Shown here: positions 28,955-55,517 of the stretch, one piece after another
Numbering within the stretch: the first letter of the stretch is position 1
How the letters are laid out: the number at the start of each line of letters is the position of its first letter
NCBI RefSeq assembly: GCF_000612505.1
Contig: NZ_CP004078.1
Location: 581,001-645,000, forward strand
Length of the DNA stretch: 64,000 bases
Reading direction: 5' to 3'
DNA from: Paenibacillus sabinae T27
GTDB lineage: Bacteria; Bacillota; Bacilli; Paenibacillales; Paenibacillaceae
Position numbers and translations under genes: made by a program
The notes under the pieces: generated by a model
Seen by the model: only the letters and a program-made list of their open reading frames with translations
Databases searched by the model: none
What the model was told of the DNA's origin: nothing

Positions 28955-30031
28955 ATGAAAAGGTTAGCTTATTGGTGCTCCATCGTTTTAGTAACGGTTC
29001 TATTTTCTAACTACGCATACGCCGACGAGAGCTTGCCCCCAAGCCTTGGTTCCACGGATATCCTTTCAGCCGGTGATCATGCGGCCGTTCTGGTTGACCG
29101 TACAGCTGGGAAAGTGCTGTTAGCCGATTTACAAGCAAATAAATTTACGAGTCTTTCAGACGACGCTTCTCCCGTGCTTGACGTGGAGGTGGTGAAACAG
29201 CCTGAGAAGATTGTGCTGCTGAAGAAAACAAACCGGAATACGATCTCGAAAACCGTGTTTTCTTATAAGGGAGCCATTCTCTCTAAAACAACCATCCCGC
29301 TAAACCTTAAGGATGGGGATAAGATCAAATGGGTAGCCCCTGCCGGAAAAGCAAATGAAAGAATTATGCTTCAAAGATTAAACGATTTTAATCTATACCA
29401 ATATCCTTGGAAGAAGCCGAGTGTCAGCTATGACGCCAAGGTCGTGGACAACGGTTGGGAGTCTGTTAGTGTGCTGGATTGGGATTTTCAGGGCTATCCT
29501 TACTTGGCAATAAAGTATATGGCATCGGGCATTATGAACCAGGTTTATTTTGCGAAAGCAGTGAATCTATATACGAAGAAAGAGGCTCTTTTCAAGGACT
29601 TTAACACGAATTTCAACCTTGAAATCGGGGGGGGAAATGCGTTGTTGTTTACCTCCAATGTGTATGAATCGGTGTACCAGCCATTTCCGCCAAATGTCCT
29701 TCGTCCCAAATCTACTGAAATCCAGCCTTACTACCAAATCATTAATGCGGATAAGGGGATCAAGAGCAAGGTGCTGGAAGGAGTTTTTGCCGACAAGGGC
29801 GATCACTCGGGGTGGCAAACGGAGCTCATTAACAATCAGTTATTTGTAGGGGATTTGGCGGAGCATACCTGGTCCTTGTATTCGGCAAATGGGTCGGAGA
29901 TTGTAACGAATCAGGCCTGGCCGGGCAACAGCGAGTCCAAGTTTGCCGGTTACAATGCGGCTGCGGGGATTGGCTACTTTTTGGAATACCACTCGGGCAA
30001 AGCCTCAATTACTGCTTATCCGGTTCATTAA
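28955..30031 (+). CDS. Secreted protein of unknown function
   Basis: I do not recognise the family. The 358-residue precursor has a clear signal peptide (MKRLAYWCSIVLVTVLFSNY, cleavage likely after AYA). The mature part is beta-rich with aromatic residues and short turns (STDILSAGDHAAVLVDRTAG, WESVSVLDWDFQGYPYLAIK, NQLFVGDLAEHTWSLYSANG), which suggests a beta-propeller-like or repeat fold. GGGAGG precedes two adjacent ATGs. Codon use is visibly more AT-rich than in neighbours, a possible sign of transfer. It is monocistronic with a terminator on each side. Confidence 0.75.
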   Translation: MKRLAYWCSIVLVTVLFSNYAYADESLPPSLGSTDILSAGDHAAVLVDRTAGKVLLADLQANKFTSLSDDASPVLDVEVVKQPEKIVLLKKTNRNTISKTVFSYKGAILSKTTIPLNLKDGDKIKWVAPAGKANERIMLQRLNDFNLYQYPWKKPSVSYDAKVVDNGWESVSVLDWDFQGYPYLAIKYMASGIMNQVYFAKAVNLYTKKEALFKDFNTNFNLEIGGGNALLFTSNVYESVYQPFPPNVLRPKSTEIQPYYQIINADKGIKSKVLEGVFADKGDHSGWQTELINNQLFVGDLAEHTWSLYSANGSEIVTNQAWPGNSESKFAGYNAAAGIGYFLEYHSGKASITAYPVH

Positions 30032-30054
30032 TAATATATGTTATTTTTAAAAAA

Positions 30055-30092
30055 AAGGCGCGGGTCCGAACACGGGAGTCCCGCGCCTTCTT
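30055..30092 (+). terminator. Intrinsic terminator before the cysteine operon
   Basis: AAGGCGCGGG at 30055-30064 pairs with CCCGCGCCTT at 30080-30089; an A run precedes it and CTTG follows. The A run makes it also usable on the minus strand. Confidence 0.7.
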
Positions 30093-30150
30093 GTATGCCT
30101 GCAGCTTGTCTATTCGAAGGAGAAAATGTCTTTTTTTTCAAAGAAGCCGC

Positions 30151-30179
30151 TAGACAGAAAAATGTCGAACTGCTATAAT
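30151..30179 (+). promoter_or_regulatory. Predicted sigma-A promoter of the cysteine/encapsulin operon
   Basis: TAGACA at 30151-30156 and TATAAT at 30174-30179 are separated by exactly 17 bp. It is the only strong promoter-like sequence I see upstream of the six-gene operon. Confidence 0.7.
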
Positions 30180-30185
30180 GAAATC

Positions 30186-30217
30186 AACTTATTCCTACAA
30201 TATTGCTCGGAATAGTT
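30186..30217. promoter_or_regulatory. CymR-like operator overlapping the transcription start
   Basis: The inverted repeat CAACTTATTCC..GGAATAGTTG, with core TATTCC (30190-30195) and GGAATA (30209-30214) and AT-rich middle, lies just downstream of the -10 box. From memory, the CymR motif of Bacillus and Staphylococcus has the same ATTCC/GGAAT half-sites at about this spacing. CymR is the Rrf2-type master repressor of cysteine metabolism, working with CysK. A repressor bound here would block transcription when cysteine is plentiful. Confidence 0.6.
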
Positions 30218-30276
30218 GGACATGGTATGGATGCGGAGAAACTGGCGAAAAAGCCAGCAGGTTAGGGGACTTCACA

Positions 30277-31206
30277 TTGGCAAATAACCATTACGGGATT
30301 ATTGAATCTATCGGCAATACACCGCTTATACGTCTTGTGAATGTGACGAAGGATCTGGGGCGAACCGACGTGAGCGTGTATGTGAAGGCCGAGCAGCTTA
30401 ATCCGAGCGGTTCGGTCAAGGACCGCGCCGCGAAGGCCATGATTTTGCAGGGAATCCAGTCAGGGCAGTTGACCAAGGAGAAATCCATCATCGACGGGAC
30501 GAGCGGCAATACCGGCATTGCTTACGCAATGATCGGTGCGGCTCTCGGATACAAAGTGACCCTGTGTCTTCCAGGTAACGCGAATGTCGAACGCAAGCGG
30601 ATTCTGCGGGCTTACCGCGCGGAAATTATCGAGACGGACCCGCTGCAAAGCTCGGATGGCGCTCAGCTTGAAGCCAAGCGGATAGCGGAGCTTGAGGCCG
30701 ACCGGTATTTTTATCCCGATCAATACAATAATGATGCGAACTGGAAAGCGCACTACGAGACGACCGCCCCGGAAATCTGGGAACAGACGGATCATAAGGT
30801 TACTCATTTTATCGCCGGCATGGGTACGTCAGGAACTTTTATCGGAACCTCCAGAAGATTGAAGGAGCTTAATCCCGCGATCCAGACCGTTGCGATGCAG
30901 CCGGATTCGCCTCTGCACGGATTGGAGGGAATGAAGCATCTGGCAACGACGCTTAAGCCGGGGATTTACGACCAGTCGGTAGCCGACGGGCTGATCGAGG
31001 TTGAAACCGAGGAAGCGTACGCCATGACGCGCAGGCTGGCGCGGGAAGAAGGGCTGCTGGTGGGAATCAGTTCCGGGGCCAATGTGCACGCCGCGCTGAA
31101 GCTGGCTGCTACCGTCCCTCCCGGATCAGTCGTCGTTACCATTTTATGCGACAGCGGGCTTCGATATTTAAGCGACGACCTGTGGATAAGGGGGGATGCA
31201 ACATGA
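30277..31206 (+). CDS. cysM: Cysteine synthase, PLP-dependent (CysM/CysK family)
   Basis: A 309-residue fold-type II PLP enzyme that makes cysteine from O-acetylserine (or O-phosphoserine) and a sulfur donor. Residues visible: IGNTPLIRL, the PLP Lys48 in NPSGSVKDRAAK, the substrate loop DGTSGNTGIAYA, and the phosphate-binding GMGTSGTFIGTSRRL. The TTG start lies 7 nt after TAGGGGAC; the frame is open upstream, but it runs through the operator. It is first in the operon and overlaps the JAMM gene by 4 nt (ATGA). The position beside a JAMM peptidase and a sulfur-carrier/E1 gene mirrors mec-cysO-cysM of actinobacteria, so thiocarboxylated carrier protein may be the sulfur donor. Confidence 0.9.
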   Translation: MANNHYGIIESIGNTPLIRLVNVTKDLGRTDVSVYVKAEQLNPSGSVKDRAAKAMILQGIQSGQLTKEKSIIDGTSGNTGIAYAMIGAALGYKVTLCLPGNANVERKRILRAYRAEIIETDPLQSSDGAQLEAKRIAELEADRYFYPDQYNNDANWKAHYETTAPEIWEQTDHKVTHFIAGMGTSGTFIGTSRRLKELNPAIQTVAMQPDSPLHGLEGMKHLATTLKPGIYDQSVADGLIEVETEEAYAMTRRLAREEGLLVGISSGANVHAALKLAATVPPGSVVVTILCDSGLRYLSDDLWIRGDAT

Positions 31207-31631
31207 TCCATCTGAAGCGGGAGCATATCGACCAAATCAATAAACACGCCGAGGAGGATTACCCGCATGAATGCTGCGGTATTGTGTTCGGCAAATTGGG
31301 TGAGGATCAGACGAAGGTGGTAAGCGAGCTGCTTCCGATTTCCAATTCGCGGGAAGAGCAGGCCAGGCATAACCGCTTTCTCATCACTTCGGAGGATATC
31401 ATGAGAAGCGAGCTGTACGCCCGGAAGCATAAGCTGGACGTTCTCGGCTTCTATCACTCGCATCCCGATCATCCTGCGCGTCCCTCGGCGTTCGACTTGG
31501 AGCATGCCTGGCCGACTTACTCTTATCTGATTGTCGCGGTTGCGGGGGGGCGGGCGGGAGAATTGACTTCCTGGGAGCTGAACAGTGACCGTTCCGCGTT
31601 CTATTCTGAAACCATTAATAGGGAGGATTAG
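31203..31631 (+). CDS. JAMM/MPN+ metallopeptidase, Mec type
   Basis: The 142-residue zinc peptidase shows the complete JAMM motif: Glu23 in YPHECCGIVFG, then His85, His87, Ser95 and Asp98 in FYHSHPDHPARPSAFD. In mycobacteria the homologue Mec cuts cysteine from the C-terminus of the carrier CysO after CysM has formed the CysO-cysteine adduct. Here the gene is coupled to cysM (4-nt overlap) and followed after 4 nt by the carrier/E1 fusion, so the same role is likely. It might also cut the carrier domain free after its internal Gly-Gly. Confidence 0.88.
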   Translation: MIHLKREHIDQINKHAEEDYPHECCGIVFGKLGEDQTKVVSELLPISNSREEQARHNRFLITSEDIMRSELYARKHKLDVLGFYHSHPDHPARPSAFDLEHAWPTYSYLIVAVAGGRAGELTSWELNSDRSAFYSETINRED

Positions 31632-31635
31632 CCGT

Positions 31636-33096
31636 ATGACAGTAAGTTTGCTTATTCCTACCGCCCTGCGCTCTTTTACGGACGGTTTGTCGGAAATCGG
31701 TTTGGAGGCGGCCACGGTTGAAGAGGCGCTGGCTGTACTAACCGAACAATATGTCGATCTTCGGCGGCATTTGTTTAACGATCAGGGCCAGCTGCGCAGC
31801 TATGTGAATATCTACGTGAATGAAGAGGATATCCGGCAAAAGAACGGCCTGCAGACAGCCTTGTCGGATGGAGACGACGTAATGCTTGTGCCTTCCATTG
31901 CCGGCGGCTCGCCGACGGAAACGGAAGGAATCGGGAGCCCGGACCTTGGCGGGCTTCCCGAACTGACCAAAGACGAAATTACCCGGTACAGCCGGCACCT
32001 TATTCTGCCGGAGGTCGGCGTGGAAGGGCAGCGCATCCTCAAGAAAAGCCGGGTACTGCTGATCGGAACCGGGGGACTGGGCGCGCCGATCGCCATGTAT
32101 TTGGCCGCCGCTGGCGTCGGGACGCTCGGCATTGTCGATTTTGACTTCGTGGATGAGACGAATTTGCAGCGCCAGATTATTCACGGCACGCGCGATATCG
32201 GCAGACCGAAGATCGCGTCTGCAAAGGACCGGATCAAGAGCATTAATCCGAAAGTAAACGTCATTGCCATCGAACAGAGACTGTCCAGTGAGAACGCCCT
32301 CGACATTATCAAGGATTACGATGTGGTCGTGGATGGAACGGATAATTTCCCGACGCGGTATTTGGTCAATGACGCCTGCGTTTTATTGGGCAAGCCGAAC
32401 GTGTACGGCTCCGTATTCCGGTTCGAAGGACAGGTCAGCGTGTTCTATGCACAGGAAGGAGCCTGTTACCGCTGTCTGTATCCGGAGCCGCCTCCAGCCG
32501 GACTTGTCCCCACTTGCTCCGAGGGCGGCATACTCGGCGTTCTTCCCGGCATCATAGGCTGCATTCAGGCAAATGAAACGATCAAGCTGCTCCTTGGCAA
32601 AGGTGAACCTCTAATCAATCGGCTGCTGCTGTTCGATGCGCTGAAGATGAAGTTTCGGGAGCTTAAGCTCAGCAAGGACACGAACTGCCCCATTTGCGGA
32701 ACACATCCTACCATTACATCCCCTATTGATTATGAAGAATTTTGCGGTTTGAAGAAGCCTGCCGAAGAGGAGCCAATCGAGGAGATCACGGCTATCGAGC
32801 TGAAAAGACGCTTTGATGGCGGGGAAGAGGTGCAAATCCTTGACATCCGGGAGCCTCATGAGCTTGCGATAGGGAAGCTACCGGGAACGAAAGCCATTCC
32901 TTTCGGGCAGATCGTTCGCCGCAAAGCGGAGCTCGATCCCGAACGCGATACGATCGTCATATGTAAAATCGGCCAGCGCAGCGTGATGGCGATTCGTACT
33001 TTACGGGATTCCGGCTATAACGGCAGACTGCTGAATTTGAAAGACGGCATGAATGCATGGGCGCAGGAAATAGATCCCCGGATTGCGCAGTACTGA
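31636..33096 (+). CDS. Fusion of MoaD/CysO-like sulfur carrier, ThiF/MoeB-type E1 enzyme and rhodanese
   Basis: Three domains in 486 residues. Residues 1-91: a ubiquitin-like carrier (VSLLIPTALRSFTDG, LRSYVNIYVNEEDIR) ending in VPSIAGG at 85-91, where free carriers terminate. Residues about 108-370: an E1 adenylating domain with ATP loop GTGGLGA (144-150), VDFDFVDETNLQRQ, DGTDNFPTRYLVND, and zinc cysteines C277, C280, C351 and C354. Residues about 383-486: rhodanese with active-site loop CKIGQRS (Cys443). It should adenylate the carrier C-terminus and transfer sulfur to give a thiocarboxylate. A carrier fused in front of its own E1 needs release or an internal mode of action. GGGAGG precedes ATG 31636. 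Confidence 0.88.
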   Translation: MTVSLLIPTALRSFTDGLSEIGLEAATVEEALAVLTEQYVDLRRHLFNDQGQLRSYVNIYVNEEDIRQKNGLQTALSDGDDVMLVPSIAGGSPTETEGIGSPDLGGLPELTKDEITRYSRHLILPEVGVEGQRILKKSRVLLIGTGGLGAPIAMYLAAAGVGTLGIVDFDFVDETNLQRQIIHGTRDIGRPKIASAKDRIKSINPKVNVIAIEQRLSSENALDIIKDYDVVVDGTDNFPTRYLVNDACVLLGKPNVYGSVFRFEGQVSVFYAQEGACYRCLYPEPPPAGLVPTCSEGGILGVLPGIIGCIQANETIKLLLGKGEPLINRLLLFDALKMKFRELKLSKDTNCPICGTHPTITSPIDYEEFCGLKKPAEEEPIEEITAIELKRRFDGGEEVQILDIREPHELAIGKLPGTKAIPFGQIVRRKAELDPERDTIVICKIGQRSVMAIRTLRDSGYNGRLLNLKDGMNAWAQEIDPRIAQY

Positions 33097-33128
33097 TGCA
33101 TATCTGACTTATAAAACTCATTATAGTA

Positions 33129-33190
33129 GGCCCATTGCTGAACCAATGCGCTTATGCACGCGAGCATATGGGCCATATTATATATTTTTC
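33129..33190 (+). promoter_or_regulatory. Hairpin plus AT-rich tract between the E1 fusion and the encapsulin gene
   Basis: GGCCCATTGCT at 33129-33139 pairs with AGCATATGGGCC at 33163-33174 (one bulge), followed by ATATTATATATTTTTC. It lies in the largest gap of the operon (119 nt), 26-87 nt before the encapsulin start. It may act as a leaky terminator or as an mRNA-stabilising end that sets shell stoichiometry. Confidence 0.5.
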
Positions 33191-33215
33191 ATTATTATCT
33201 TAAGGGGGCTTTACT

Positions 33216-34169
33216 ATGTCCGAACAAGACAATGGCAATCTGGCCGTACCGGCGCTCGGTTCATCGGCAGCTTATCAACTGGCAAATGTTACTAAATCTG
33301 CACCGCAATTCGATTCCCTTACACCGCGTTGGATCACAAGGCTGTTCGACTGGAAGGGACTTGAAACGGGGATTTACCGGCTGAACAAGGTACAGGAAGG
33401 CGATACGCCGCTTGATGTATTGTGCAGTACCGGCGACACCTCGAATATTACCGAAGGCTTTGTCGATTATAGTACAAGCCCGCGCGAATACGTGCTGAAT
33501 TCCATTTCGACGATTATCAACGTCAATACCCGCGTATCGGACATATACAGCAGCCCCTTCAACCAGATTCAGGAACAGTTGCGGCTTGCCATTGAGAGCA
33601 TCAAGGAAAGGCAGGAAAGCCAGCTCATCAACAGCGATGATTACGGTCTTTTGAAAAATGCGGCGCCTTCCCAGCGCATCCAGACACGTAACGGTGCGCC
33701 GACGCCGGATGATCTGGACGAGTTAATCTCCAAGGTGTGGAAAGAGCCTTCCTATTTCCTGGCTCATCCGCGGGCCATCGCGGCCATCGGCCGGGAATGC
33801 ACAAGACGCGGCGTTCCGCCGCAAACGGTGCAGATCTTTGGTTCGCATTTTCTGACCTGGAGAGGCATCCCTATTATTCCTACGGACAAGCTGTTCGTCG
33901 ACGGTCATAAGAACCCGAAAGGCCAGGCGGGCAAAACGAATATTCTGCTGGTGCGCACCGGAGAAAATAAGCAGGGCGTTCTCGGCTTGTATCAAACCGG
34001 TCTTCCGGGCGAGCAGTCACGCGGGCTTTCGGTCCGGTTTACGGGTATCGACAAGCAGGGCATCGGCTCGTATCTCCTTTCCTTGTACTGCTCCGTTGCC
34101 ATTCTTGCGGATGACGCGGTAGGCGTGCTGGAAGATGTGGATGTAGGTAACTACTATGACTACGAATAG
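33216..34169 (+). CDS. Family 2A encapsulin shell protein (SrpI-like)
   Basis: The 317-residue protein matches the SrpI-type HK97-fold shell proteins that assemble into icosahedral nanocompartments. Recognisable parts are an extended N-arm (FDSLTPRWITRLFDWKGLETGIYRLNK), the E-loop region (PREYVLNSISTIINVNTRVSD), QLRLAIESIKERQE, and the P/A-domain stretch EPSYFLAHPRAIAAIGREC with IFGSHFLTWRGIPIIPTDKL. There is no cyclic-nucleotide-binding domain, so it is 2A rather than 2B. AAGGGGGC precedes the ATG. The next gene overlaps by 14 nt and encodes the expected cargo, a cysteine desulfurase. Confidence 0.9.
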   Translation: MSEQDNGNLAVPALGSSAAYQLANVTKSAPQFDSLTPRWITRLFDWKGLETGIYRLNKVQEGDTPLDVLCSTGDTSNITEGFVDYSTSPREYVLNSISTIINVNTRVSDIYSSPFNQIQEQLRLAIESIKERQESQLINSDDYGLLKNAAPSQRIQTRNGAPTPDDLDELISKVWKEPSYFLAHPRAIAAIGRECTRRGVPPQTVQIFGSHFLTWRGIPIIPTDKLFVDGHKNPKGQAGKTNILLVRTGENKQGVLGLYQTGLPGEQSRGLSVRFTGIDKQGIGSYLLSLYCSVAILADDAVGVLEDVDVGNYYDYE

Positions 34170-35751
34170 CAATCATCCATCCCTTCCGGACCCATCCGTC
34201 CTGGCGGCGCTGGCGAGTGCATACTTTCCGGAATTTTCATCCGGGGAAGCGGCTGCGGCCGCTTCATCCGCTCCGGAGCTTGCACCATCCGTTCAAAACG
34301 TTCAGAATACGGTTCCTTCGCCTCCAACCTTTACACCGTCCGTACAGGGGGGTTACCCTGCGGCGCAACCGTACCATGGATTATGGACCGAGGCGGACTT
34401 TCTGCGGGCGATTCCCGGTGCTTTTGAATCGGACAATCTAGGGACAAGCTCTTTGCCGGGCAGCTATGCACCGTCGGTTGAGTTCTTGTCAGGCAGCCAA
34501 GCTGCATCCGCCGTTTCGGCTCCTTCGCTATCTTTCGGGGCGTTTGATGTAAACGCGGTGCGAAAGGATTTTCCGATTCTGGCGGAGAAGGTGAACGGTA
34601 AAGATCTGGTGTGGCTGGACAATGCCGCGACGACCCATAAGCCCCGGCAGGTTATTGAACGGATCAAGTACTATTATGAGCATGAGAATTCCAATGTGCA
34701 CCGCGCGGCTCATGAGCTGGCGGCGCGCTCCACGGATGCTTACGAGGGCGCCCGCGAGAAGGCGGCCCGGTTTCTGAATGCCCCTTCGGAGAAGGAAATC
34801 GTGTTCGTCCGGGGAGCGACTGAGGCAATCAATTTGGTCGCAAGCAGCTATGCCAGACATCATTTGCAGAAAGATGATGAAATTCTCATCACGTGGCTGG
34901 AGCATCATGCCAACATCGTGCCCTGGCAGCTGGTCTGCGAGGAGACCGGGGCGAAGCTCCGTGTCGCGCCTGTCGATGAGAGCGGACAAATCCTGCTGGA
35001 CGAATATGCGAAGCTGCTGAGCTCCCGGACGAAGTTCGTCTCCCTGACGCATGTATCCAACGCGCTTGGTACGGTTACTCCTGTAGCGGAGATGGTCAGC
35101 CTGGCCCACCGTTACGGCGCCAAAGTGCTGGTTGACGGCGCGCAGGCCGTCTCCCACTTGAAAGTGGACGTGCAGTCGCTGGATGCCGATTTTTACGTGT
35201 TCTCGGGTCATAAAGTATTTGGTCCTACGGGAATCGGCGTTCTTTACGGCAAACCCGAAGCGCTAGAAGCCATGCGTCCCTACCAGGGCGGAGGCAATAT
35301 GATCGTGGATGTAACGTTTGAGAAGACCATTGTTCACCCGGCTCCGGCCCGTTTTGAAGCGGGAACCGGTAATATTGCGGATGCGGTCGGACTTGGCGCG
35401 GCGCTGGACTACGTTTCCTCAATCGGCCTGGATGTGATTAACCGATATGAACATTTTCTGCTCGAATACGGCATAGAATCGCTTTCCCGCGTCCCTGGCC
35501 TGCGGCTCATCGGCACGGCAAAGGAAAAAGCGGGCGTGCTGTCCTTCGTTCTCTCAGGGTATACGACGGAGGAAGTCGGCAAGGCCCTTAGCAATGAAGG
35601 GATCGCCGTTCGTTCCGGCCACCATTGCGCTCAGCCGATTCTCCGCAGATTCGGGCTTGAGAGCGCGGTAAGACCGTCGCTGGCACTCTATAACACCTGC
35701 GGGGAAATTGACGCCTTGACGTCTGTGCTGTTGAAGCTGAAGCATAGCTGA
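34156..35751 (+). CDS. Encapsulated cysteine desulfurase with N-terminal cargo-loading domain
   Basis: Removes sulfur from L-cysteine as a persulfide, leaving alanine. The SufS-type fold spans about 130-531: LDNAATTHKPRQV, HRAAHELAARSTDAYEGAR, THVSNALGTV, the PLP Lys353 in FSGHKVFGPTG and the catalytic Cys491 in RSGHHCAQPIL. Ahead of it lie ~130 residues rich in Ala, Pro and Ser, predicted disordered, with a short helix-like motif LPDPSVLAALASAYFPEF near the start and GLWTEADFLRAIP further on. Such extensions target this enzyme to family 2A shells. The 14-nt overlap with the shell gene implies coupled translation. It is 120-130 residues longer than ordinary SufS. Confidence 0.93.
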   Translation: MTTNSNHPSLPDPSVLAALASAYFPEFSSGEAAAAASSAPELAPSVQNVQNTVPSPPTFTPSVQGGYPAAQPYHGLWTEADFLRAIPGAFESDNLGTSSLPGSYAPSVEFLSGSQAASAVSAPSLSFGAFDVNAVRKDFPILAEKVNGKDLVWLDNAATTHKPRQVIERIKYYYEHENSNVHRAAHELAARSTDAYEGAREKAARFLNAPSEKEIVFVRGATEAINLVASSYARHHLQKDDEILITWLEHHANIVPWQLVCEETGAKLRVAPVDESGQILLDEYAKLLSSRTKFVSLTHVSNALGTVTPVAEMVSLAHRYGAKVLVDGAQAVSHLKVDVQSLDADFYVFSGHKVFGPTGIGVLYGKPEALEAMRPYQGGGNMIVDVTFEKTIVHPAPARFEAGTGNIADAVGLGAALDYVSSIGLDVINRYEHFLLEYGIESLSRVPGLRLIGTAKEKAGVLSFVLSGYTTEEVGKALSNEGIAVRSGHHCAQPILRRFGLESAVRPSLALYNTCGEIDALTSVLLKLKHS

Positions 35752-35845
35752 AGCGTACTGAAACGGCTGCGGTATCCGCAGTCAATCCCCTGTTATCTCC
35801 GGCGCCGGACGATGCCATTGAAGCAGGGGGAAAGGAGGTTGAGTC

Positions 35846-36790
35846 TTGAGCAGCATTAATGACAACCGAATGAACCGTCTCGTTGCGGAGATTGCGGCCA
35901 GCTATCGGGAACAACCGATTAATCCTTTACTGGATTATTCGCTGCTTCCGAGCCGTAAGCTGGTAATTGAGAGCATACATTTGGTTTGGGAACTGCTGTT
36001 CCCCGGTTATTTCGGCAAGCAGGACTTGAATGATGAGACGATGGAGTATCATATTGGCTCTGTTCTCATACAGATTCAGGAGAAGCTGTCCGACCAGATT
36101 GGCCGTTCTTTGCTGTACCGGAGGGGCCAGAATTCCCATTCCTCCCAAGAGGTAATACCGGAGGCGGAGGAAATCATCCATCAATTTTTGGCGGAAATTC
36201 CGCGGATTCGGAGCGTGCTGGCCACCGATGCCCAAATCGCTTTCGACGGAGATCCGGCGGCCAATGATTTGAGCGAGATCATTTTCTCCTATCCCGGCTT
36301 ATTCGCGGTGGGGATCTACCGTATGGCCCATGAACTGGAACTGCTGTCTGTCCCGCTTATTCCTCGGATTATGACCGAATATGCGCACAGCGTCACAGGT
36401 ATTGATATCCATCCCGGGGCGAAGATTGGCAGTTCCTTCTTTATCGACCATGGTACCGGGGTGGTGATTGGAGAAACGACGGAGATCGGGAATCGGGTGA
36501 AGATTTACCACGGGGTGACGCTGGGAGCCTTATCGCTCCGGGAGGGTCATTCGATGTATGGGAAAAAGCGCCATCCGACGCTTGAGGATGATGTGACAGT
36601 GTATTCCGGCGCATCCATTCTGGGCGGGGATACCGTTATCGGCAAAGGGGTCGTGATCGGCAGCAATGTCTCCATCTTCAAGTCCGTGCCTGCCGGCGCG
36701 AAAGTGACTGTAAGGAACCCGGAACTGATCATCAAAGGCCAGGCGCCGCAAGAATTCCCGCAGGAATTCACCTGGGATTGGGTGATTTGA
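35846..36790 (+). CDS. Serine O-acetyltransferase, EpsC/CysE type
   Basis: Makes O-acetylserine, the acceptor for cysteine synthase. The 314-residue protein has a long helical N-terminal part (1-~165) and a left-handed beta-helix with MTEYAHSVTGIDIHPGAKIG, the catalytic-type DHGTGVVIGET, IYHGVTLGAL, and KKRHPTLEDDVTVYSGASIL. It is longer than housekeeping CysE (~220-270 aa) and resembles the EpsC form often found beside family 2A encapsulins. The C-terminus ends in TWDWVI; a terminal Ile is what binds the cysteine synthase active site in the classical complex. The TTG start follows AAAGGAGG by 7 nt. Last gene of the operon. Confidence 0.92.
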   Translation: MSSINDNRMNRLVAEIAASYREQPINPLLDYSLLPSRKLVIESIHLVWELLFPGYFGKQDLNDETMEYHIGSVLIQIQEKLSDQIGRSLLYRRGQNSHSSQEVIPEAEEIIHQFLAEIPRIRSVLATDAQIAFDGDPAANDLSEIIFSYPGLFAVGIYRMAHELELLSVPLIPRIMTEYAHSVTGIDIHPGAKIGSSFFIDHGTGVVIGETTEIGNRVKIYHGVTLGALSLREGHSMYGKKRHPTLEDDVTVYSGASILGGDTVIGKGVVIGSNVSIFKSVPAGAKVTVRNPELIIKGQAPQEFPQEFTWDWVI

Positions 36791-36800
36791 AGCTCCGTTA

Positions 36801-36842
36801 CCAAGAAGAAACGCCTGACGGCGTCTTTCAAGACGCAAGTAC
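36801..36842 (+). repeat. Dispersed 42-bp repeat, copy 1
   Basis: Runs from CCAAGAAGAAACGCCTGACG to AAGACGCAAGTAC and contains the perfect hairpin GCGTCTT-TC-AAGACGC. A second copy in opposite orientation at 55644-55685 agrees at 40 of 42 positions. Both lie just outside coding genes. Confidence 0.85.
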
Positions 36843-36853
36843 GTTTCTCGTAG

Positions 36854-36901
36854 AAATATAAGACAAAATGATAAGCGCTCAGCTTATAAATTCTTATATT
36901 T
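36854..36901. repeat. AT-rich nested inverted repeat next to the dispersed repeat
   Basis: AAATATAAGA at 36854-36863 pairs with 36892-36901, and ATAAGC at 36871-36876 pairs with GCTTAT at 36882-36887. It directly follows the 42-bp repeat and is absent from its other copy. It may belong to a longer mobile palindromic element. Confidence 0.6.
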
Positions 36902-36904
36902 TCA

Positions 36905-36966
36905 AAAAAAAACGAACCCGACTTCCACTCCATAATCGGTGGAAGGACGGGTTCGTTTCATTTTAT
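36905..36966. terminator. Bidirectional terminator between the cysteine operon and acnA
   Basis: AACGAACCCG at 36911-36920 pairs with CGGGTTCGTT at 36948-36957, with an inner TTCCA/TGGAA stem, an A run on the left and TTCATTTTATTT on the right. Confidence 0.88.
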
Positions 36967-37030
36967 TTAGCAGGTTAGGCGGGTCATGCCCGAAATGGCC
37001 TCACGGGATATGCCCGCGCCGTTCCTTATC

Positions 37031-39769
37031 TTACTCCGCTTTAGCGGCAGTAGGAGACGCGTCCGCCAGCATTTGGCGCAGCACCGTTTGCAGGATGCCG
37101 CCGTTACGGTAGTAATCGACGTCGACCATGCTGTCCAGCCGCGCGATGACCGGGAAGTCGAACTTCGTGCCGTCTTCGCGGGTGGCGGTAACCGTCAGCT
37201 CTTGTCCAGGCTGTACGTCATTGCTGAGGCCGTTAATATCGAAGGTCTCGCGGCCCGTCAGCCCCAGATTGCTCCAGCCGTGGCCTTCCTGGAACTGCAG
37301 CGGCAGCACGCCCATGCCGACAAGGTTGCTGCGGTGAATCCGCTCGAAGCTCTCGGCGATGACGGCTTTGACGCCCAGCAGGAACGTGCCTTTGGCCGCC
37401 CAGTCGCGCGAGCTGCCCGTGCCGTATTCCTTGCCCGCGATAACGACGAGGTTCTGTCCGTCAGCCTGATAGCGCATGGAAGCGTCATAGATCGGCATCA
37501 CTTCGTTGGTCGGCAGGTAGGTGGTGACGCCGCCTTCCGTTCCCGGAGCAACCGCGTTGCGGATACGGATGTTGGCGAACGTTCCGCGCATCATGACTTC
37601 ATGGTTGCCTCGGCGGGAGCCGTAGGAGTTGAAGTCCTTGCGCTCAACGCCGTGCTCGCTGAGGTATTTGCCCGCAGGGCCGGACGTTGTAATATTACCG
37701 GCAGGCGAGATATGGTCGGTCGTTACCGAATCGCCCAGCAGGGCGAGTACGCGCGCACCGTTGATATCCTCGATGTCGCCGAGTCCGTCGGCCAGATGCT
37801 CGAAGAACGGCGGGTTCTGGATATACGTCGATTTCTCGTCCCATTCGTAGAGCTCGCCTTCCGGAACGGGAATCGCATTCCAGCGCTCGTTGGCCGTAAA
37901 GACGTTCTCGTATTTGCTGCGGAACATTTCCGGGCTGACCGACAACTGAATCGCTTCGCGGATTTCAGCGCTTGTCGGCCAGATGTCTTTCAGGTAGACC
38001 GGCTCTCCGAGCGAGTCATAACCGAGTGGATCGTTCTGCAGGTCGATATTAACCGTACCCGCGATCGCATAGGCCACAACCAGCGGCGGAGAAGCGAGAT
38101 AGTTCGCCTTGACCTGGGCGTGCACGCGTCCTTCGAAGTTCCGGTTACCCGAAATGACGGAAGCCACGGTCATATCGTTCGCCGCAACCGCCTGGGCCAC
38201 CTCATCCGGAAGCGGTCCGGAGTTGCCGATACAGGTGGCGCAGCCGTAGCCGGCGACGTAGAAGCCGAGCTCTTCCAGCGGCTTCAGGAGATCTGCCTTC
38301 ACCAGGTAATCCGTCACGACGAGCGAACCCGGCGTCAGGCTGCTCTTGACATAGCCCGGTTTGGTCAGGCCGCGCTCGACGGCTTTCTTGGCAAGCAGAC
38401 CCGCGCCAAGCATAACGCTTGGGTTCGAGGTGTTCGTACAGCTTGTGATTGCCGCGATGACGACTGCGCCGGTGGACAGCTCGCTTTTGCTGCCGTCTTT
38501 ATGCTGAAGCTCGACCTTTTGCGCGATTTTCTCGTCGCTCAGGCCGTAACCGCCTTTGTCGATCGGAGTGCGGATAATGCCTTCGAAATTCTCTTTCATA
38601 TGTGTAAGCTCGATCCGGTCCTGAGGACGCTTCGGTCCCGCCAAGCTTGGCACAACCGAGGCCAGATCCAGTTCAATCGTATCGCTGAATACCGGGTCCG
38701 GCGTTTCCGCCGTACGGAACATGCCTTGAGCTTTGTAGTACGTCTCCACCAGTTCGACCTGCTCATCAGAACGGCCTGTGCTACGAAGATAGAACAGCGT
38801 CTCGTCGTCCACAGGGAAGAAGCCGATCGTCGCGCCGTATTCAGGCGCCATGTTGGCGACCGTCGCCCGGTCGGCCAGGCTGATATTGGCAAGGCCCGGG
38901 CCGTAAAATTCGACGAATTTGCCGACCACGCCTTTTTTGCGCAGCATTTGGGTAACGGTCAGTGCCAGATCGGTTGCCGTAGCGCCTTCCACCAGACTGC
39001 CTGTCAGCTTGAAGCCGATTACGTCAGGGGTCACAAAATAGAGCGGCTGCCCCAGCATGCCGGCTTCCGCCTCAATGCCGCCGACGCCCCAGCCTACAAC
39101 GCCCAGACCATTAATCATGGTTGTGTGGGAGTCGGTGCCTACCAGCGAATCCGGATACACGGTCGTTTCGCCGTCCACGGTCTTCGTGGCCGCAACCGAA
39201 GCCAGATACTCCAGGTTGACCTGGTGCACGATGCCGGTTGCCGGAGGAACGGCGCGGAAGTTGTTGAATGCCGTCTGCGCCCAGCGCAGGAACCGGTAGC
39301 GTTCCTCGTTGCGTTCGAATTCAACGTTCATATTGTATTCCAGCGCGTCCTTGGTGCCGAAGGCGTCAACCATGACCGAATGGTCGATGACGAGGTCGAC
39401 CGGCACGAGCGGATTGATCTGCTTCGGATCACCGCCGGCTTTTTTTACAGTGTCGCGCATGGCCGCTAGGTCTACAACCACCGGTACGCCGGTGAAATCC
39501 TGCAGCACGATCCGCGCCGGAATGAAGGGGATTTCCTTCCCGCGGTCGATGTCGCCCGCCCAGCCGGCAAGCTGTTTGACATGCTCTTCTGTAATGGCTC
39601 TTCCGTCGAATTGGCGGACGGCCGCCTCAAGCAGCACTTTAATGGAAAAAGGAAGGGAGGAGATATTGCCGAGTCCCTGCTGTTCAAGCGCTTGAAGATC
39701 ATAGTAGCGGTACGTTGTGCCGCCCGACGTGAGCGAGCGGGCCAAATTGAAATTATCCTTGCTTGGCAT
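37031..39769 (-). CDS. acnA: Aconitate hydratase
   Basis: Isomerises citrate to isocitrate in the TCA cycle with a [4Fe-4S] cluster. The 912-residue length is typical of AcnA/IRP1-type enzymes. Visible signatures are [20 protein letters not shown], the cluster cysteines in [14 protein letters not shown] and [18 protein letters not shown], and the swivel-domain [18 protein letters not shown]. The ATG at 39769 follows AAGGAGG; an upstream in-frame ATG at 39805 is unlikely. In Bacillus the apo-form also binds iron-responsive-like RNA elements. Monocistronic. Confidence 0.97.
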
Positions 39770-51168: not shown

Positions 51169-51239
51169 AGCTTTCATTAGCCTATTATGTGATATTTTTC
51201 CTAAAGTTAAAAATTTCAATAAGGCATGGTGATTGCAGG

Positions 51240-54200
51240 ATGCAGCTGAGGATCGGACTGGATGTCGGATCGACTACGGCCAAGTTGGTTGTCATGGAGC
51301 AAAGCGAGATTGTCCATCAGGATTATGTCAGACACTACAGCGATATCAAAAAAGCGGTGCTCACTTTGCTGGATAAGGTCATCTCCCTATTCCCGGGAAG
51401 GGACGCGGTACTCGCGGTAAGCGGTTCTTCGGGCCTATCTCTGTCCAAGCTGGGGGATGTGCCTTTTGTTCAGGAGGTCATCGCCTGCACGAAAGCGATC
51501 GGCGAGCTGCTTCCGTCCTGCGATACCGCCATTGAGCTTGGGGGAGAGGACGCCAAGCTGATCTATCTCAGCGGCGGCATCGAGCAGCGGATGAACAATG
51601 CCTGCGCGGGCGGGACGGGCGCTTTTATAGACCAGATGGCCGCTCTGCTGAAGACGGACCCTACCGGGCTCGACGCGCTTGCGGCGGGTCACGAGCGGAT
51701 TTATCCGATCGCTTCCCGCTGCGGCGTCTTTGCCAAGAGCGACATTCAGCCGCTGCTGAATGAAGGGGCGCGCCGCGAGGATGTGGCGGCTTCGATCTTC
51801 CAAAGCATCGTCAATCAGACGATCGCCGGACTGGCCTGCGGGCGTCCGATTCGCGGCCGCGTCGCTTTTCTGGGCGGTCCGCTGACGTACTTGTCCCAGC
51901 TGCGGGCCCGGTTCGTTGAGACGCTCGAGCTTGCCGAGGACGACATCCTGTTCCCGGAGAGATCGCAGTATTTCGTGGCGATCGGCTCGGCCCTGTCGGA
52001 AAGCGGCGGGGCCGCTGTGCCGCTTGCGGAGTGGCGGGCCCGGATCGCGGCCGTCGATTTTGCGTCGGAGCGCTCCGAGGACGGCGAGCTTCCGCCGCTC
52101 TTTGAGACGAAGGCCGAGCTTGACGAATTCCGGCGGCGCCATTCGGAGGCCGGGGCGGTGCGGGCCGATCTGTCCTCTTACCGCGGACCGTGCTATCTCG
52201 GCATCGACGCCGGCTCAACGACAACGAAGCTTGTGCTTACGGGCAGCGTCGATGAGATTTTGTATACATATTACGGGAGCAATCAAGGAAATCCGCTTAA
52301 ATCGGTCAGCGAAGCGCTGAAGGAGATTTACCGGCTGCTGCCGGACGGCTGCTATATTGCCGGCTGTTATGCGACCGGCTACGGCGAGGGGCTGATCAAG
52401 GCGGCTCTGAAGGCCGACGGCGGCGAAGTGGAGACGGTTGCCCATTATAAAGCGGCCGCCAAGTTTATGCCGGAGGTCGATTTTATTCTCGACATCGGCG
52501 GCCAGGACATGAAATGCATCAAAATCCGCGGCGGCGCCATCGACAGCCTCATGCTGAACGAAGCCTGCTCCGCGGGCTGCGGCTCTTTTCTGGAGAGCTT
52601 TGCCTCGGCGCTTGGTCTTGGCGTCTCGGAGTTCGCCGAGGCCGCGCTGCATTCGGAGAAGCCCGTCAATCTGGGCTCCCGCTGCACCGTGTTCATGAAC
52701 TCGAAGGTGAAGCAGGCGCAGAAGGAAGGGGCGTCCCTGTCCGATCTTTCGGCCGGGCTGGCCTACTCCGTCATCAAGAACGCGCTGCAGAAGGTTATCA
52801 AAATCCGCAGATTCGATGAACTGGGCGAACACATTATCGTGCAGGGAGGCACTTTCTACAATGAAGCCGTGCTGCGCGCCTTTGAGCAACTGACGGGGAG
52901 AACCGTCATACGCCCGGATATCGCCGGCGTGATGGGAGCCTACGGCTGCGCCCTGCTCGCCAGAGAGAACGCGGCGGAGAGCGGCGTCAGCACGCTGCTC
53001 GGCGCTGAGGAGCTGGAGAGCTTTGCCTATGAGGTGACGCAGGGCCGCTGCGGCCGCTGCGGCAACAACTGCCCGCTGACGATCAGCCGGTTCCCGGACC
53101 GCAGCTTCCATGTCACCGGCAACCGCTGCGAACGCGGAGCCGGCGGGAAGAAAGAAAAGAACAAGCTGCCGAATCTGATGCAGTATAAATACGAACGCTT
53201 CCTGGATTACGCTCCCCTCCCCGATGAGGAGGCCGTCCGAGGCGTTGTCGGAATGCCGCGCGCCATGAACCTGTTCGAGAACTATCCATTCTGGCATGCG
53301 TTCTTTACCTCTCTTCGCTACAAGGTGGTACTGTCTCCAAAGTCGGACAAAAAGCTGTACGAAAGCGGCATGGACACCATTCCGTCCGAAGCGGTCTGCT
53401 ATCCGGCCAAAATGGCCCACGGCCATGTGCAGAGCCTGCTCGGCAAGGGCGTCGATTTTATTTTCTACCCCGCCATCGTTTATGAGAAGAAAGAGGATGA
53501 AGCCGCCGACAACCACTTTAACTGCCCGGTCGTCGCCTCCTACCCGGAAGTCATCCGCAACAATATGGACGGCCTCAAAGAGAAGGGCATTCCGCTTGTC
53601 AGCCCGTTCCTGACCTTTGATGACATTTCGGCGCTGACGAAAGGGCTGGCGCGCACGTTCCCGGATATCCCGAAGGATGAGATTGCCGCCGCCATTCAGG
53701 CCGGGCTGGCCGAAGCGGAGCGGGCGAAGAGCGACTTGCGCCGGAAAGGCGAGGAGACGCTGGCGTTCCTGGAAGAGACCGGCATCAAGGGCATTCTGCT
53801 GTGCGGGCATCCGTATCACGCTGATCCTGAAATCAACCATGGCATCGCAGATCTTATTACCGGCATGGGGCTGGCCGTTCTGACCGAGGATGCCGTCTTC
53901 CATCTGGGGAGCGCCGAGGGCGAACTGGGCGTGGTCAATCAATGGACCTACCACGCCCGGATCTACCGGGCCGCGCGGCTCGCCGCTGAGCGCAGTGACC
54001 TGGAGCTGGTGCAGCTTACCTCGTTCGGCTGCGGCATCGACGCCATTACCTGCGATGCGGTGCAGAATATTTTGGAGCGGAGGGGCAAGGTGTATACGCT
54101 GATCAAGATCGACGAGATCAGCAATTTGGGAGCGGCCCGCATCCGCCTGCGCTCGCTGCTCGCGGCGATGCGCGAGCGGGAGAACGGCGAGGAAGCGCCG

Positions 54201-55517
54201 CTTCGGGCCGAAGCTGCCGGAAAGACTGTGCCGTTTACCAAAGACATGAAGTCGGCTTATACGATCCTTGCGCCGCAGATGTCGCCGGTCCACTTCGAGC
54301 TGTTCGAGCGGGTGTTCCGGGATTTCGGATACCGGCTTAAAGTGCTTGAGAAGTCCGGCCCCGAGGAGACGGAGGAAGGCCTGAAGTATGTCAATAACGA
54401 CGCCTGCTACCCGGCCATTGTGACGATCGGTCAAATCCTGTCGGCTCTGCAGAGCGGGGATTACGATCCGGAACGCACAGCGGTCATCATGTCGCAGACG
54501 GGCGGGGGCTGCCGGGCAACGAATTACATTTCCCTGCTGCGCAAGGCGCTTAAGGATGCGGGTCTTGAGAAGATTCCGGTGCTGTCGCTGAACGCTTCGG
54601 GTATGGAGAACCAGCCGGGCTTCCGGATCGGACTCAAGATGATCAACCGGATGTTCGCCGCGGCGTGCTACGGCGACTTGCTGATGCGGCTGCTGCACCG
54701 CTTCAGACCCTACGAGAAGGTTCCGGGGAGCGCCGAAGCGCTGTTCCGGAAGGGGATGGAGCGCTGCAAGGACAGCTTGTCATCCTTCTCGTTCCGCGAT
54801 TACAAGAAGCTCGCCCGCGAGATTGCTTCCGAATTCAGCCGCCTGCCGCTGACGTCTGCGGTTAAGCCGCGGGTCGGCGTCGTCGGCGAGATTCTGATCA
54901 AGTTCCATCCCGACGCCAACAATCGGATTGTCGAGCTGATCGAAGCCGAGGGTGGGGAAGCGGTGCTGCCCGATTTTCTCGATTTCATCTTCTACTGCCT
55001 GTACAATCCGATTTACCGGGCGGAGCAGTTCGGCAAGAACAAAACGCTCGGACTGATCAACCCGCTGCTCATTTCGTATTTGCAGATGTACCGTAAGCCG
55101 ATCGCGGCTGCGCTTGAAGAGGCGGGGGTCGCTCATAAGGACAAGAACATTTACCGTCTGGCCGAGAAGGCCGAACGGCTCGTGTCCATCGGCAACCAGA
55201 TGGGCGAGGGCTGGTTCCTGACCGCCGAGATGATGGAGCTTCTTGACCACGGCGTCAACAATATCGTCTGCATCCAGCCGTTCGCCTGCCTTCCGAACCA
55301 TATTACCGGGCGCGGGACGATGAAAGGCCTGAAAGAGCTGTATCCAAGCGCGAATATCGCCGCGATCGATTATGATGCAGGGGTCAGTGTCGTGAACCAG
55401 ACGAACCGGATCAAGCTGATGATGTCGATTGCGGCCGAGCTCGAGAACGGCGGGGCGTTCTTTGAGGAATCAAGCGGCCCCAAGGCGGGGTCGCAGCTGA
55501 AGACGGCCCGGGCTTAG
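51240..55517 (+). CDS. Giant acyl-CoA dehydratase activase-related protein with two BadF/HgdC-type ATPase modules
   Basis: A 1425-residue protein. Two actin-like ATPase modules come first: one at about 1-290 (IGLDVGSTTAKLVV) and one at about 315-600 (LGIDAGSTTTKLVL). Each keeps two cysteines at the positions that bridge the [4Fe-4S] cluster in HgdC activase dimers: C122 and C161 in module 1, C443 and C482 in module 2. A Cys-rich motif GRCGRCGNNCPLTISRFPD follows near 605. The rest (~660-1425) is DUF2229/2-hydroxyacyl-CoA dehydratase-like (TIPSEAVCYPAKMAHGHV, NNDACYPAIVTIGQ, GGGCRATNYISLLR). Such proteins occur in many Bacillota; the reaction is unknown. No dehydratase subunits are adjacent. 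ATG 51240 has only a weak binding site. Confidence 0.88.
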   Translation: MQLRIGLDVGSTTAKLVVMEQSEIVHQDYVRHYSDIKKAVLTLLDKVISLFPGRDAVLAVSGSSGLSLSKLGDVPFVQEVIACTKAIGELLPSCDTAIELGGEDAKLIYLSGGIEQRMNNACAGGTGAFIDQMAALLKTDPTGLDALAAGHERIYPIASRCGVFAKSDIQPLLNEGARREDVAASIFQSIVNQTIAGLACGRPIRGRVAFLGGPLTYLSQLRARFVETLELAEDDILFPERSQYFVAIGSALSESGGAAVPLAEWRARIAAVDFASERSEDGELPPLFETKAELDEFRRRHSEAGAVRADLSSYRGPCYLGIDAGSTTTKLVLTGSVDEILYTYYGSNQGNPLKSVSEALKEIYRLLPDGCYIAGCYATGYGEGLIKAALKADGGEVETVAHYKAAAKFMPEVDFILDIGGQDMKCIKIRGGAIDSLMLNEACSAGCGSFLESFASALGLGVSEFAEAALHSEKPVNLGSRCTVFMNSKVKQAQKEGASLSDLSAGLAYSVIKNALQKVIKIRRFDELGEHIIVQGGTFYNEAVLRAFEQLTGRTVIRPDIAGVMGAYGCALLARENAAESGVSTLLGAEELESFAYEVTQGRCGRCGNNCPLTISRFPDRSFHVTGNRCERGAGGKKEKNKLPNLMQYKYERFLDYAPLPDEEAVRGVVGMPRAMNLFENYPFWHAFFTSLRYKVVLSPKSDKKLYESGMDTIPSEAVCYPAKMAHGHVQSLLGKGVDFIFYPAIVYEKKEDEAADNHFNCPVVASYPEVIRNNMDGLKEKGIPLVSPFLTFDDISALTKGLARTFPDIPKDEIAAAIQAGLAEAERAKSDLRRKGEETLAFLEETGIKGILLCGHPYHADPEINHGIADLITGMGLAVLTEDAVFHLGSAEGELGVVNQWTYHARIYRAARLAAERSDLELVQLTSFGCGIDAITCDAVQNILERRGKVYTLIKIDEISNLGAARIRLRSLLAAMRERENGEEAPLRAEAAGKTVPFTKDMKSAYTILAPQMSPVHFELFERVFRDFGYRLKVLEKSGPEETEEGLKYVNNDACYPAIVTIGQILSALQSGDYDPERTAVIMSQTGGGCRATNYISLLRKALKDAGLEKIPVLSLNASGMENQPGFRIGLKMINRMFAAACYGDLLMRLLHRFRPYEKVPGSAEALFRKGMERCKDSLSSFSFRDYKKLAREIASEFSRLPLTSAVKPRVGVVGEILIKFHPDANNRIVELIEAEGGEAVLPDFLDFIFYCLYNPIYRAEQFGKNKTLGLINPLLISYLQMYRKPIAAALEEAGVAHKDKNIYRLAEKAERLVSIGNQMGEGWFLTAEMMELLDHGVNNIVCIQPFACLPNHITGRGTMKGLKELYPSANIAAIDYDAGVSVVNQTNRIKLMMSIAAELENGGAFFEESSGPKAGSQLKTARA

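Follow-up and report, generated by a model that had tools for sequence, protein, structure and literature searches.

How sulfur held inside an encapsulin shell might be returned to metabolism is a question raised directly by a six-gene locus of the soil bacterium Paenibacillus sabinae T27. Elemental sulfur is reportedly stored in a family 2A encapsulin shell, according to work on Acinetobacter of 2024. The return of such sulfur to metabolism and the identity of its acceptor are left open in PMC8346489 and PMC8049743, in the sections drawn on here (each paper cited in this text is used in part). The locus lies in a stretch of 64,000 nucleotides (nt) of contig NZ_CP004078.1 (assembly GCF_000612505.1, positions 581,001 to 645,000 of the forward strand), referred to as the window. 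The open reading frame map places all six genes on the + strand, from 30151 to 36790 of the window: a CysM-like cysteine synthase, a JAMM metallopeptidase, a fused sulfur carrier-E1-rhodanese protein, an encapsulin shell, a cysteine desulfurase and a serine O-acetyltransferase (Table 1). This gene neighbourhood names an acceptor chain, in which sulfur would pass from the rhodanese through E1 and carrier to CysM and which stands beside the shell in several lineages, and the recurrence of the set in distant bacteria suggests how shell-held sulfur might be paid back out. We propose that the operon banks sulfur and pays it out through a thiocarboxylate on a protein instead of free sulfide, a reading to which we give an even chance of being correct and which makes the return of encapsulin sulfur testable in a genus that is culturable and not pathogenic.

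The shell protein scores lower with the family 2B model (392 bits) than with the 2A model, matches PF19307 at 334 bits, and has PDB matches to 8t6r and to SrpI (6x8m) at 410 bits each; no cNMP (cyclic nucleotide) domain was reported in the profile search. The SrpI match and a score above the NCBI curated cut-off bear out, at sequence level, an SrpI-like shell of HK97 type and the family 2A assignment of the preliminary description. The desulfurase exceeds the 800-bit cut-off of the model for family 2A cargo cysteine desulfurases, carries the motifs SGHK and RSGHHC, and its LAALASAYF near the N-terminus resembles LARLANEFFS, one of two published N-terminal motifs of such cargo (PMC8049743). In the chain encoded upstream of the shell, ThiS, ThiF and Rhodanese domains are joined. 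The best carrier-only PDB sequence match of its first 91 residues is 3dwg chain C (55.8 bits), which we take to be CysO bound to CysM, and the E1 domain contains GTGGLG, the pairs CYRC and CPIC, and PTCSEGG, with Uba4 (6yub) and MoeB-MoaD (1jw9) as top Foldseek matches.

The remaining three proteins are assigned less sharply, as none reaches an NCBIfam equivalog cut-off. The synthase has the lysine motif SVKDR for pyridoxal 5'-phosphate (PLP), its best NCBIfam match is TIGR01138 cysM (341 bits, below the cut-off of 394), and it is 41% identical to the cysK beside SrpI in Synechococcus elongatus, without the 11-residue insert of that enzyme. The JAMM residues E23, H85-S86-H87, S95 and D98 are invariant in 13 of 13 relatives, and the gene with this complete metal-site motif adjoins the carrier gene, as in a CysO-CysM-Mec set. 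The acetyltransferase scores 160 and 146 bits against cut-offs of 211 and 150, reaching neither. The E1, rhodanese, desulfurase, JAMM and CysM parts all contain their active-site motifs, and profile searches uphold the identities first given to all six genes, as the frame map does their common direction. Their description as tightly packed holds for two groups, with CysM and JAMM overlapping by 4 nt, JAMM and E1 separated by 4 nt, and shell and desulfurase overlapping by 14 nt; it does not hold for the gaps between E1 and shell (119 nt) and between desulfurase and acetyltransferase (94 nt).

Table 1. Features of the encapsulin and sulfur-carrier locus, in window coordinates.
Feature	Position	Strand	Basis
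Promoter-like site TAGACA-17-TATAAT, TG before -10	30151..30179	+	11/12 consensus bases
ATTCC-N13-GGAAT dyad, putative operator, regulator unspecified	30191..30213	+	single window match
CysM-like cysteine synthase, PLP fold type II	30277..31206 (open frame from ATG 30178)	+	PF00291 247 bits
JAMM/JAB metallopeptidase, Mec-like	31203..31631	+	PF14464 (Prok-JAB) 93 bits
Sulfur-carrier (ThiS/CysO-like) domain, residues 1-91, ending ...SIAGG	31636..31908	+	PF02597
Linker after Gly-Gly, predicted cleavage region	31909..31962	+	low pLDDT; variable after invariant IAGG
E1-like adenylyltransferase domain, MoeB/ThiF/Uba4 fold	31963..32700	+	PF00899 287 bits
Rhodanese domain, CKIGQRS active-site loop (Cys443)	32760..33096	+	PF00581 47 bits
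Conserved hairpin between E1 and shell, GGCCCAT...ATGGGCC	33129..33174	+	arm conservation, predicted folding
Family 2A encapsulin shell protein	33216..34169	+	NF041162 511 bits, cut-off 380
SufS-type cysteine desulfurase, N-terminal encapsulation region (LAALASAYF)	34156..35751	+	NF041166 836 bits
Serine O-acetyltransferase, CysE/EpsC-type, second genome copy	35846..36790	+	TIGR01172 160 bits
Probable terminator after operon	36909..36962	+	stem-loop -29.7 kcal/mol, then T-rich tail

Each half of the operon resembles a system already in print. The SrpI-CyD cluster of S. elongatus likewise has a shell, an N-terminally extended SufS-type desulfurase and an acetyltransferase next door (PMC8049743; PMC8346489); its genes run cysK, acetyltransferase, shell, desulfurase, rhodanese, and the 12.9 kb viewed include neither a carrier nor a JAMM nor an E1. 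In P. sabinae the carrier-E1-rhodanese protein, the JAMM peptidase and the CysM-like enzyme replace that cysK and lone rhodanese. Since an enzyme using free sulfide is thereby swapped for one using carrier-bound sulfur, the sulfur need never be free sulfide, and the simplest reading by analogy is that the operon would do the same job as the S. elongatus cluster, sulfur to cysteine, without it. Among the accessory genes of 2A desulfurase operons, those for acetyltransferase and rhodanese show the highest enrichment, and it has been suggested that a rhodanese acts as acceptor at the shell (Andreas & Giessen 2021, PMC8346489). For the carrier half, an operon of ThiS/MoaD, E1-rhodanese, JAB and cysteine synthase was predicted to transfer sulfur to cysteine (Iyer 2006, Table 1 row 4c, PMC1779556). 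The same four elements stand together here, with the differences that the carrier is fused to the E1 and that shell, desulfurase and acetyltransferase are joined to them; the text for row 4c, as far as it is drawn on here, does not mention encapsulin. The mycobacterial CysO-CysM-Mec-MoeZR pathway offers a further likeness in the carrier, whose whole length is covered by the match to 3dwg chain C, in the E1 with rhodanese, and in the adjacent JAMM and CysM-like enzyme (PMC3227635).

No paper joining the encapsulin half to the carrier half was found in a search of the main texts of open-access papers. The terms 'ThiF', 'MoeB', 'JAB', 'ubiquitin' and 'thiocarboxyl' are absent from the main text of PMC8346489, and 'CysO', 'MoeB', 'ubiquitin', 'thiocarboxyl' and 'rhodanese' from PMC8049743. 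The union, which the preliminary description took to be undescribed as one system, is likely to be novel; its halves are individually in print (Iyer 2006; Andreas & Giessen 2021).

Within the family, the linkage is conserved where the shell occurs. A shell is found in nine of 394 Paenibacillaceae genomes and a close carrier-E1 homologue (at least 738 bits; the next best scores 295 bits) in eight of the 394. The E1 gene directly precedes the shell in all eight genomes with the close homologue, and seven of these have the complete set of six genes, arranged on a single strand as in the window, the contig of the eighth ending after the shell. The linkage in relatives thus holds in 8/9 shell-bearing Paenibacillaceae genomes, and it recurs in clostridial metagenome-assembled genomes (MAGs) and on an Aliarcobacter plasmid. 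Two outcomes had been set beforehand as refuting, a lack of conserved linkage and a shell outside family 2A; both were checked, the second by sequence, and neither was observed.

Outside Paenibacillaceae, 26 distinct shell loci on chromosomes were compared: 6 from an even draw of 398 phylum genomes, 3 more from the order of genome G582, 6 more from that of G727, and 11 from named contigs. The carrier-E1 gene adjoins the shell in 14 of them. Source by source, the two genes are neighbours in 1/6 loci of the even draw, 0/6 shell genomes of the G582 order, 6/7 of the G727 order and 8/11 of the named contigs, a set that favours close relatives, having been searched with peptide patterns from this one shell; several of the module-less loci (L006, L007, L110 and L114) are on short contigs. 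All six genes occur in one order and on one strand in three MAG loci (L010, L011 and L012). L010, labelled an Acidobacteriota MAG, is possibly mis-binned, because both its shell and its E1 cluster with those of Family XIII MAGs from the same sample series. The desulfurases of L011 and L012, in cassettes that are otherwise complete, have no LAxLAxxYF-type motif visible near their start. Other loci depart from the full arrangement: the acetyltransferase is on the opposite strand in L008 and L016, lies on both flanks in L086 and L107, and was not seen at the locus in L009, L013 and L015, and the JAMM gene is not adjacent in L105 and L106.

The cassette was also looked for on plasmids. A shell match is present in 32 plasmid records, five of whose neighbourhoods were viewed, and a search of plasmids with the carrier-E1 chain (E <= 1e-100) returned three records, with a nearby shell only in Aliarcobacter cibarius pACIB. 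On this plasmid the genes follow one another as sulfate-binding protein, synthase, JAMM, IS110, carrier, E1, IS5, rhodanese, shell, desulfurase, acetyltransferase, hypothetical protein, cysK (L100, 3007-13521); pACIB is typed as mobilizable. The cassette has moved, and the pACIB copy is interrupted by IS110- and IS5-family elements and has an extra cysK downstream. On a Methylosinus plasmid, pOB3b1 (L102, 1166-9870), a 2A shell and desulfurase have in their vicinity genes for 'nitrogenase component 1' and for a regulator of the Rrf2 family.

The identical gene order in other genera and phyla places the set beyond chance and bears on a different explanation, that the locus houses two independent sulfur operons, possibly transcribed separately on either side of the gap between E1 and shell. 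In that gap lies a hairpin that retains the arms GGCCCAT/ATGGGCC throughout six genomes of the genus, around a core varying from 46 to 126 nt, with predicted folding energies of -17 to -58 kcal/mol, followed by a T-containing AT-rich stretch, ATATTATATATTTTT or close variants; the corresponding gap has this hairpin in L026, L027, L028, L030 and L031. From its form the element is possibly an attenuator or an RNA-processing element. The preliminary description passed over it, and the single transcript is a prediction. Each half also occurs without the other, in shell-less operons and in P. sinopodophylli and other module-less shells, as two operons would allow. Against such independence, the linkage recurs in different genera and phyla, and the divergences of its components are correlated: over 15 representative loci, pairwise comparison of the components gives r of 0.65-0.93 (21 pairs, 7-15 shared loci each), with the observed value reached by at most 6 of 2000 permutations, although with no outside control gene pair shared host ancestry contributes to r. 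On the shell tree (38 of 40 rows kept, the L110 and L111 shells being dropped as too short) the module label needs three changes, at least two of them forced by well-supported branches, and 0 of 500 shuffles were as low, a result that near-copies favour. In addition, the promoter scan of 29900-37050 reported no + strand promoter-like site in the E1-shell gap, the only one in that range being that at 30151-30179. We consider two unconnected operons improbable.

The anatomy of the carrier raises a difficulty that the preliminary description passed over. In mycobacterial CysO the thiocarboxylate sits on the final glycine of Gly-Gly (PMC3227635), whereas the IAGG of the operon's carrier (residues 88-91) is internal and is followed by 25 residues and then the E1 domain. 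Residues follow IAGG in all 23 shell-linked carriers (22 distinct sequences), of which 18 are joined to the E1 by linkers of 21-51 residues and five stand alone as proteins, their tails being 1, 2, 4, 4 and 25 residues long. More broadly, the motif [AVILM][AS]GG is present in 115/115 homologues in which a recognised E1 start is preceded by an extended N-terminal part including a carrier domain (120 fused or related proteins were listed out of 8000 scored, 115 of them with such a start), although in P0020 it matched first inside the JAMM part; in fused homologues 12-50 variable residues usually come after it. The AlphaFold2 model of the chain has a mean predicted local distance difference test (pLDDT) of 83, falling below 50 precisely at residues 88-104, so that Gly-Gly and linker are predicted to be disordered. 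As a mark specific to encapsulin-linked carriers the residues after Gly-Gly were rejected, since they occur also in shell-less operons and widely in databases. Two other Paenibacillaceae carriers (L088, L089) end exactly at GG. Judged from these sequences, an internal Gly-Gly with an extension characterises the carrier-E1 class.

For MoaD and CysO, the first step towards the thiocarboxylate is adenylation of the last glycine (PMC3227635). Because an E1 adenylates a free C-terminal glycine, the fused carrier would not be loadable until cut after Gly-Gly, making it a case of a ubiquitin-like protein made inside its own E1, with proteolysis needed before use. The cut is most likely made by the JAMM peptidase of the operon. 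JAMM proteases are known to trim carriers, in the pairs QbsE/QbsD of thioquinolobactin synthesis and HcyS/HcyD of Wolinella, by removing the residues after Gly-Gly; the tails of QbsE and HcyS are one or two residues, whereas the tail in this class is mostly a whole E1-rhodanese and the product would be cysteine. We predict that the JAMM enzyme acts twice, freeing the carrier and later freeing cysteine from it, on the grounds of the internal Gly-Gly, the invariant metal site, the known JAMM trimming, and the P0020 chain, a natural single protein of 626 residues in the order JAMM-carrier-E1-rhodanese. In the structure model of P0020, made for docking of JAMM and carrier, much of the JAMM part falls under a pLDDT of 50, too poor a prediction for judging the docking. 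That stored sulfur is paid out through a carrier built into its own E1, with the JAMM peptidase as both on-switch and product releaser and no free sulfide, is a tentative proposal that we hold with more doubt than confidence.

The proposed sequence of events would begin as the N-terminal region of the desulfurase directs that enzyme into the 2A shell; there, by homology, it would convert cysteine to alanine and sulfane sulfur, which would be held in the shell. On demand, sulfur would leave the shell as a persulfide-level species and pass to rhodanese Cys443. The carrier, presumably released by the cut after Gly-Gly, would be adenylated by the E1 and would receive the rhodanese persulfide as a thiocarboxylate, as in MoeZ and Uba4. 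The CysM-like enzyme would join the thiocarboxylate sulfur to acrylate derived from O-acetylserine, which the acetyltransferase of the operon would supply, giving carrier-cysteine, and the JAMM peptidase, acting like Mec, would free cysteine and reset the carrier. We infer the direction of flow, the form in which sulfur is exported, and the use of O-acetylserine over O-phosphoserine; mycobacterial CysM uses the latter (PMC3227635), whereas the operon here has an acetyltransferase adjacent.

The same gene set fits a reverse flow, in which the carrier route makes cysteine from an inorganic sulfane source, such as thiosulfate via the rhodanese, and the desulfurase then strips the sulfur into the shell in one-way filling. 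The sulfate-transporter binding-protein gene directly before CysM on pACIB fits such loading, as does the thiosulfate sulfurtransferase activity of the rhodanese domains of mycobacterial MoeZR and MoeBR (PMC3227635). We think one-way filling unlikely; a second, carrier-bound synthase is not obviously needed just for cysteine supply in a genome with other synthase-like genes and a 3'-phosphoadenylylsulfate (PAPS) reductase. Elsewhere the genome retains six PALP matches of at least 261 bits, a 255-bit CysE, this reductase and two further ThiS-family carriers, which suggests that the route through the operon is special-purpose. The two further carriers would suit yet another arrangement, a direct relay in which the encapsulated desulfurase passes persulfide to the E1-rhodanese, which sulfurates carriers generally (for molybdenum cofactor, thiamine or tRNA) and for which cysteine synthesis is incidental; rhodaneses are enriched in 2A operons and are proposed acceptors at the shell (PMC8346489). 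The dedicated carrier fused in cis speaks against it, as do the CysM and acetyltransferase genes that travel with the carrier module in most complete loci, and we regard a general relay as quite improbable.

Several observations weigh against a store paid out by way of thiocarboxylate. Chemically, a path from cysteine to cysteine is futile unless its two arms are separated in time or place. The E1, unlike MoeZR of the mycobacterial pathway, carries both CXXC pairs, a feature given as MoeB/MoeBR-like, and only MoeZR, not MoeBR, sulfurated CysO (PMC3227635). The synthase, from its sequence, is not clearly of the mycobacterial CysM type, the 3dwg chains being absent among its 60 best PDB matches. 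The other PALP enzymes, CysE and PAPS reductase mean that the operon is not the sole cysteine route, and the hairpin in the 119-nt gap may separate the halves of the operon. Nor is the module tied to the shell everywhere: five of the six non-own shells in the even phylum draw are without it, and all six shell-less phylum operons inspected, drawn from 30 loci, have a fused carrier with linker and internal GG (with a weak JAMM match nearby in 6/6 and a synthase in 5/6). The ninth shell-bearing Paenibacillaceae genome, that of P. sinopodophylli, has shell, desulfurase and acetyltransferase without the carrier module, although loss of the module is likely here, given that its shell falls within the Paenibacillus clade. 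Near the shells of L086, L107 and L108 no CysM was detected. In f35-order genomes the JAMM gene is not beside the E1, yet is elsewhere in 5/6, and in G727, G939 and G907 it adjoins a second, rhodanese-less E1, whose pathway it may serve instead. Among nine module genomes checked, a JAMM match of at least 76 bits was present in eight, and none was found in G853 (85% complete).

In L086 (2013-8268) and L107, a second, rhodanese-less E1 with a JAMM gene lies upstream of the series acetyltransferase, carrier/E1, shell, desulfurase, acetyltransferase, next to frames that resemble by eye sulfite reductase and O-acetylhomoserine sulfhydrylase, which has the look of a second carrier pathway beside the encapsulin.

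Signals at the head of the operon modify the preliminary description in two respects. The -35, the -10 and the spacing of the promoter-like site are kept in six aligned genomes of the genus. ATG 30178 was rejected as the CysM start, as it overlaps the -10 box; in P. rhizophilus a 1-nt deletion between ATG 30178 and TTG 30277 breaks the ATG frame, and TTAGGGGAC before TTG 30277 is conserved across six genomes of the genus, so that TTG 30277, behind this element, is the more probable start. The 'cysteine-type operator' proposed earlier is unsupported. The pattern ATTCC-N(6-16)-GGAAT has one match in the window, where mononucleotide shuffles expect 0.46; the arms of this lone dyad are intact in four of six relatives in the genus, and the pattern was not found in nine stretches of the same genome around other cysteine-synthase-like, cysE and PAPS-reductase genes, for which reason the dyad was rejected as a demonstrated cysteine operator. 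No Rfam family reached its gathering score in the window, and no tRNA or tmRNA was found there. Away from the operon, positions 51189-55517 of the window encode a protein of 1442 residues in which BcrAD/BadFG ATPase and DUF2229 domains each occupy two stretches.

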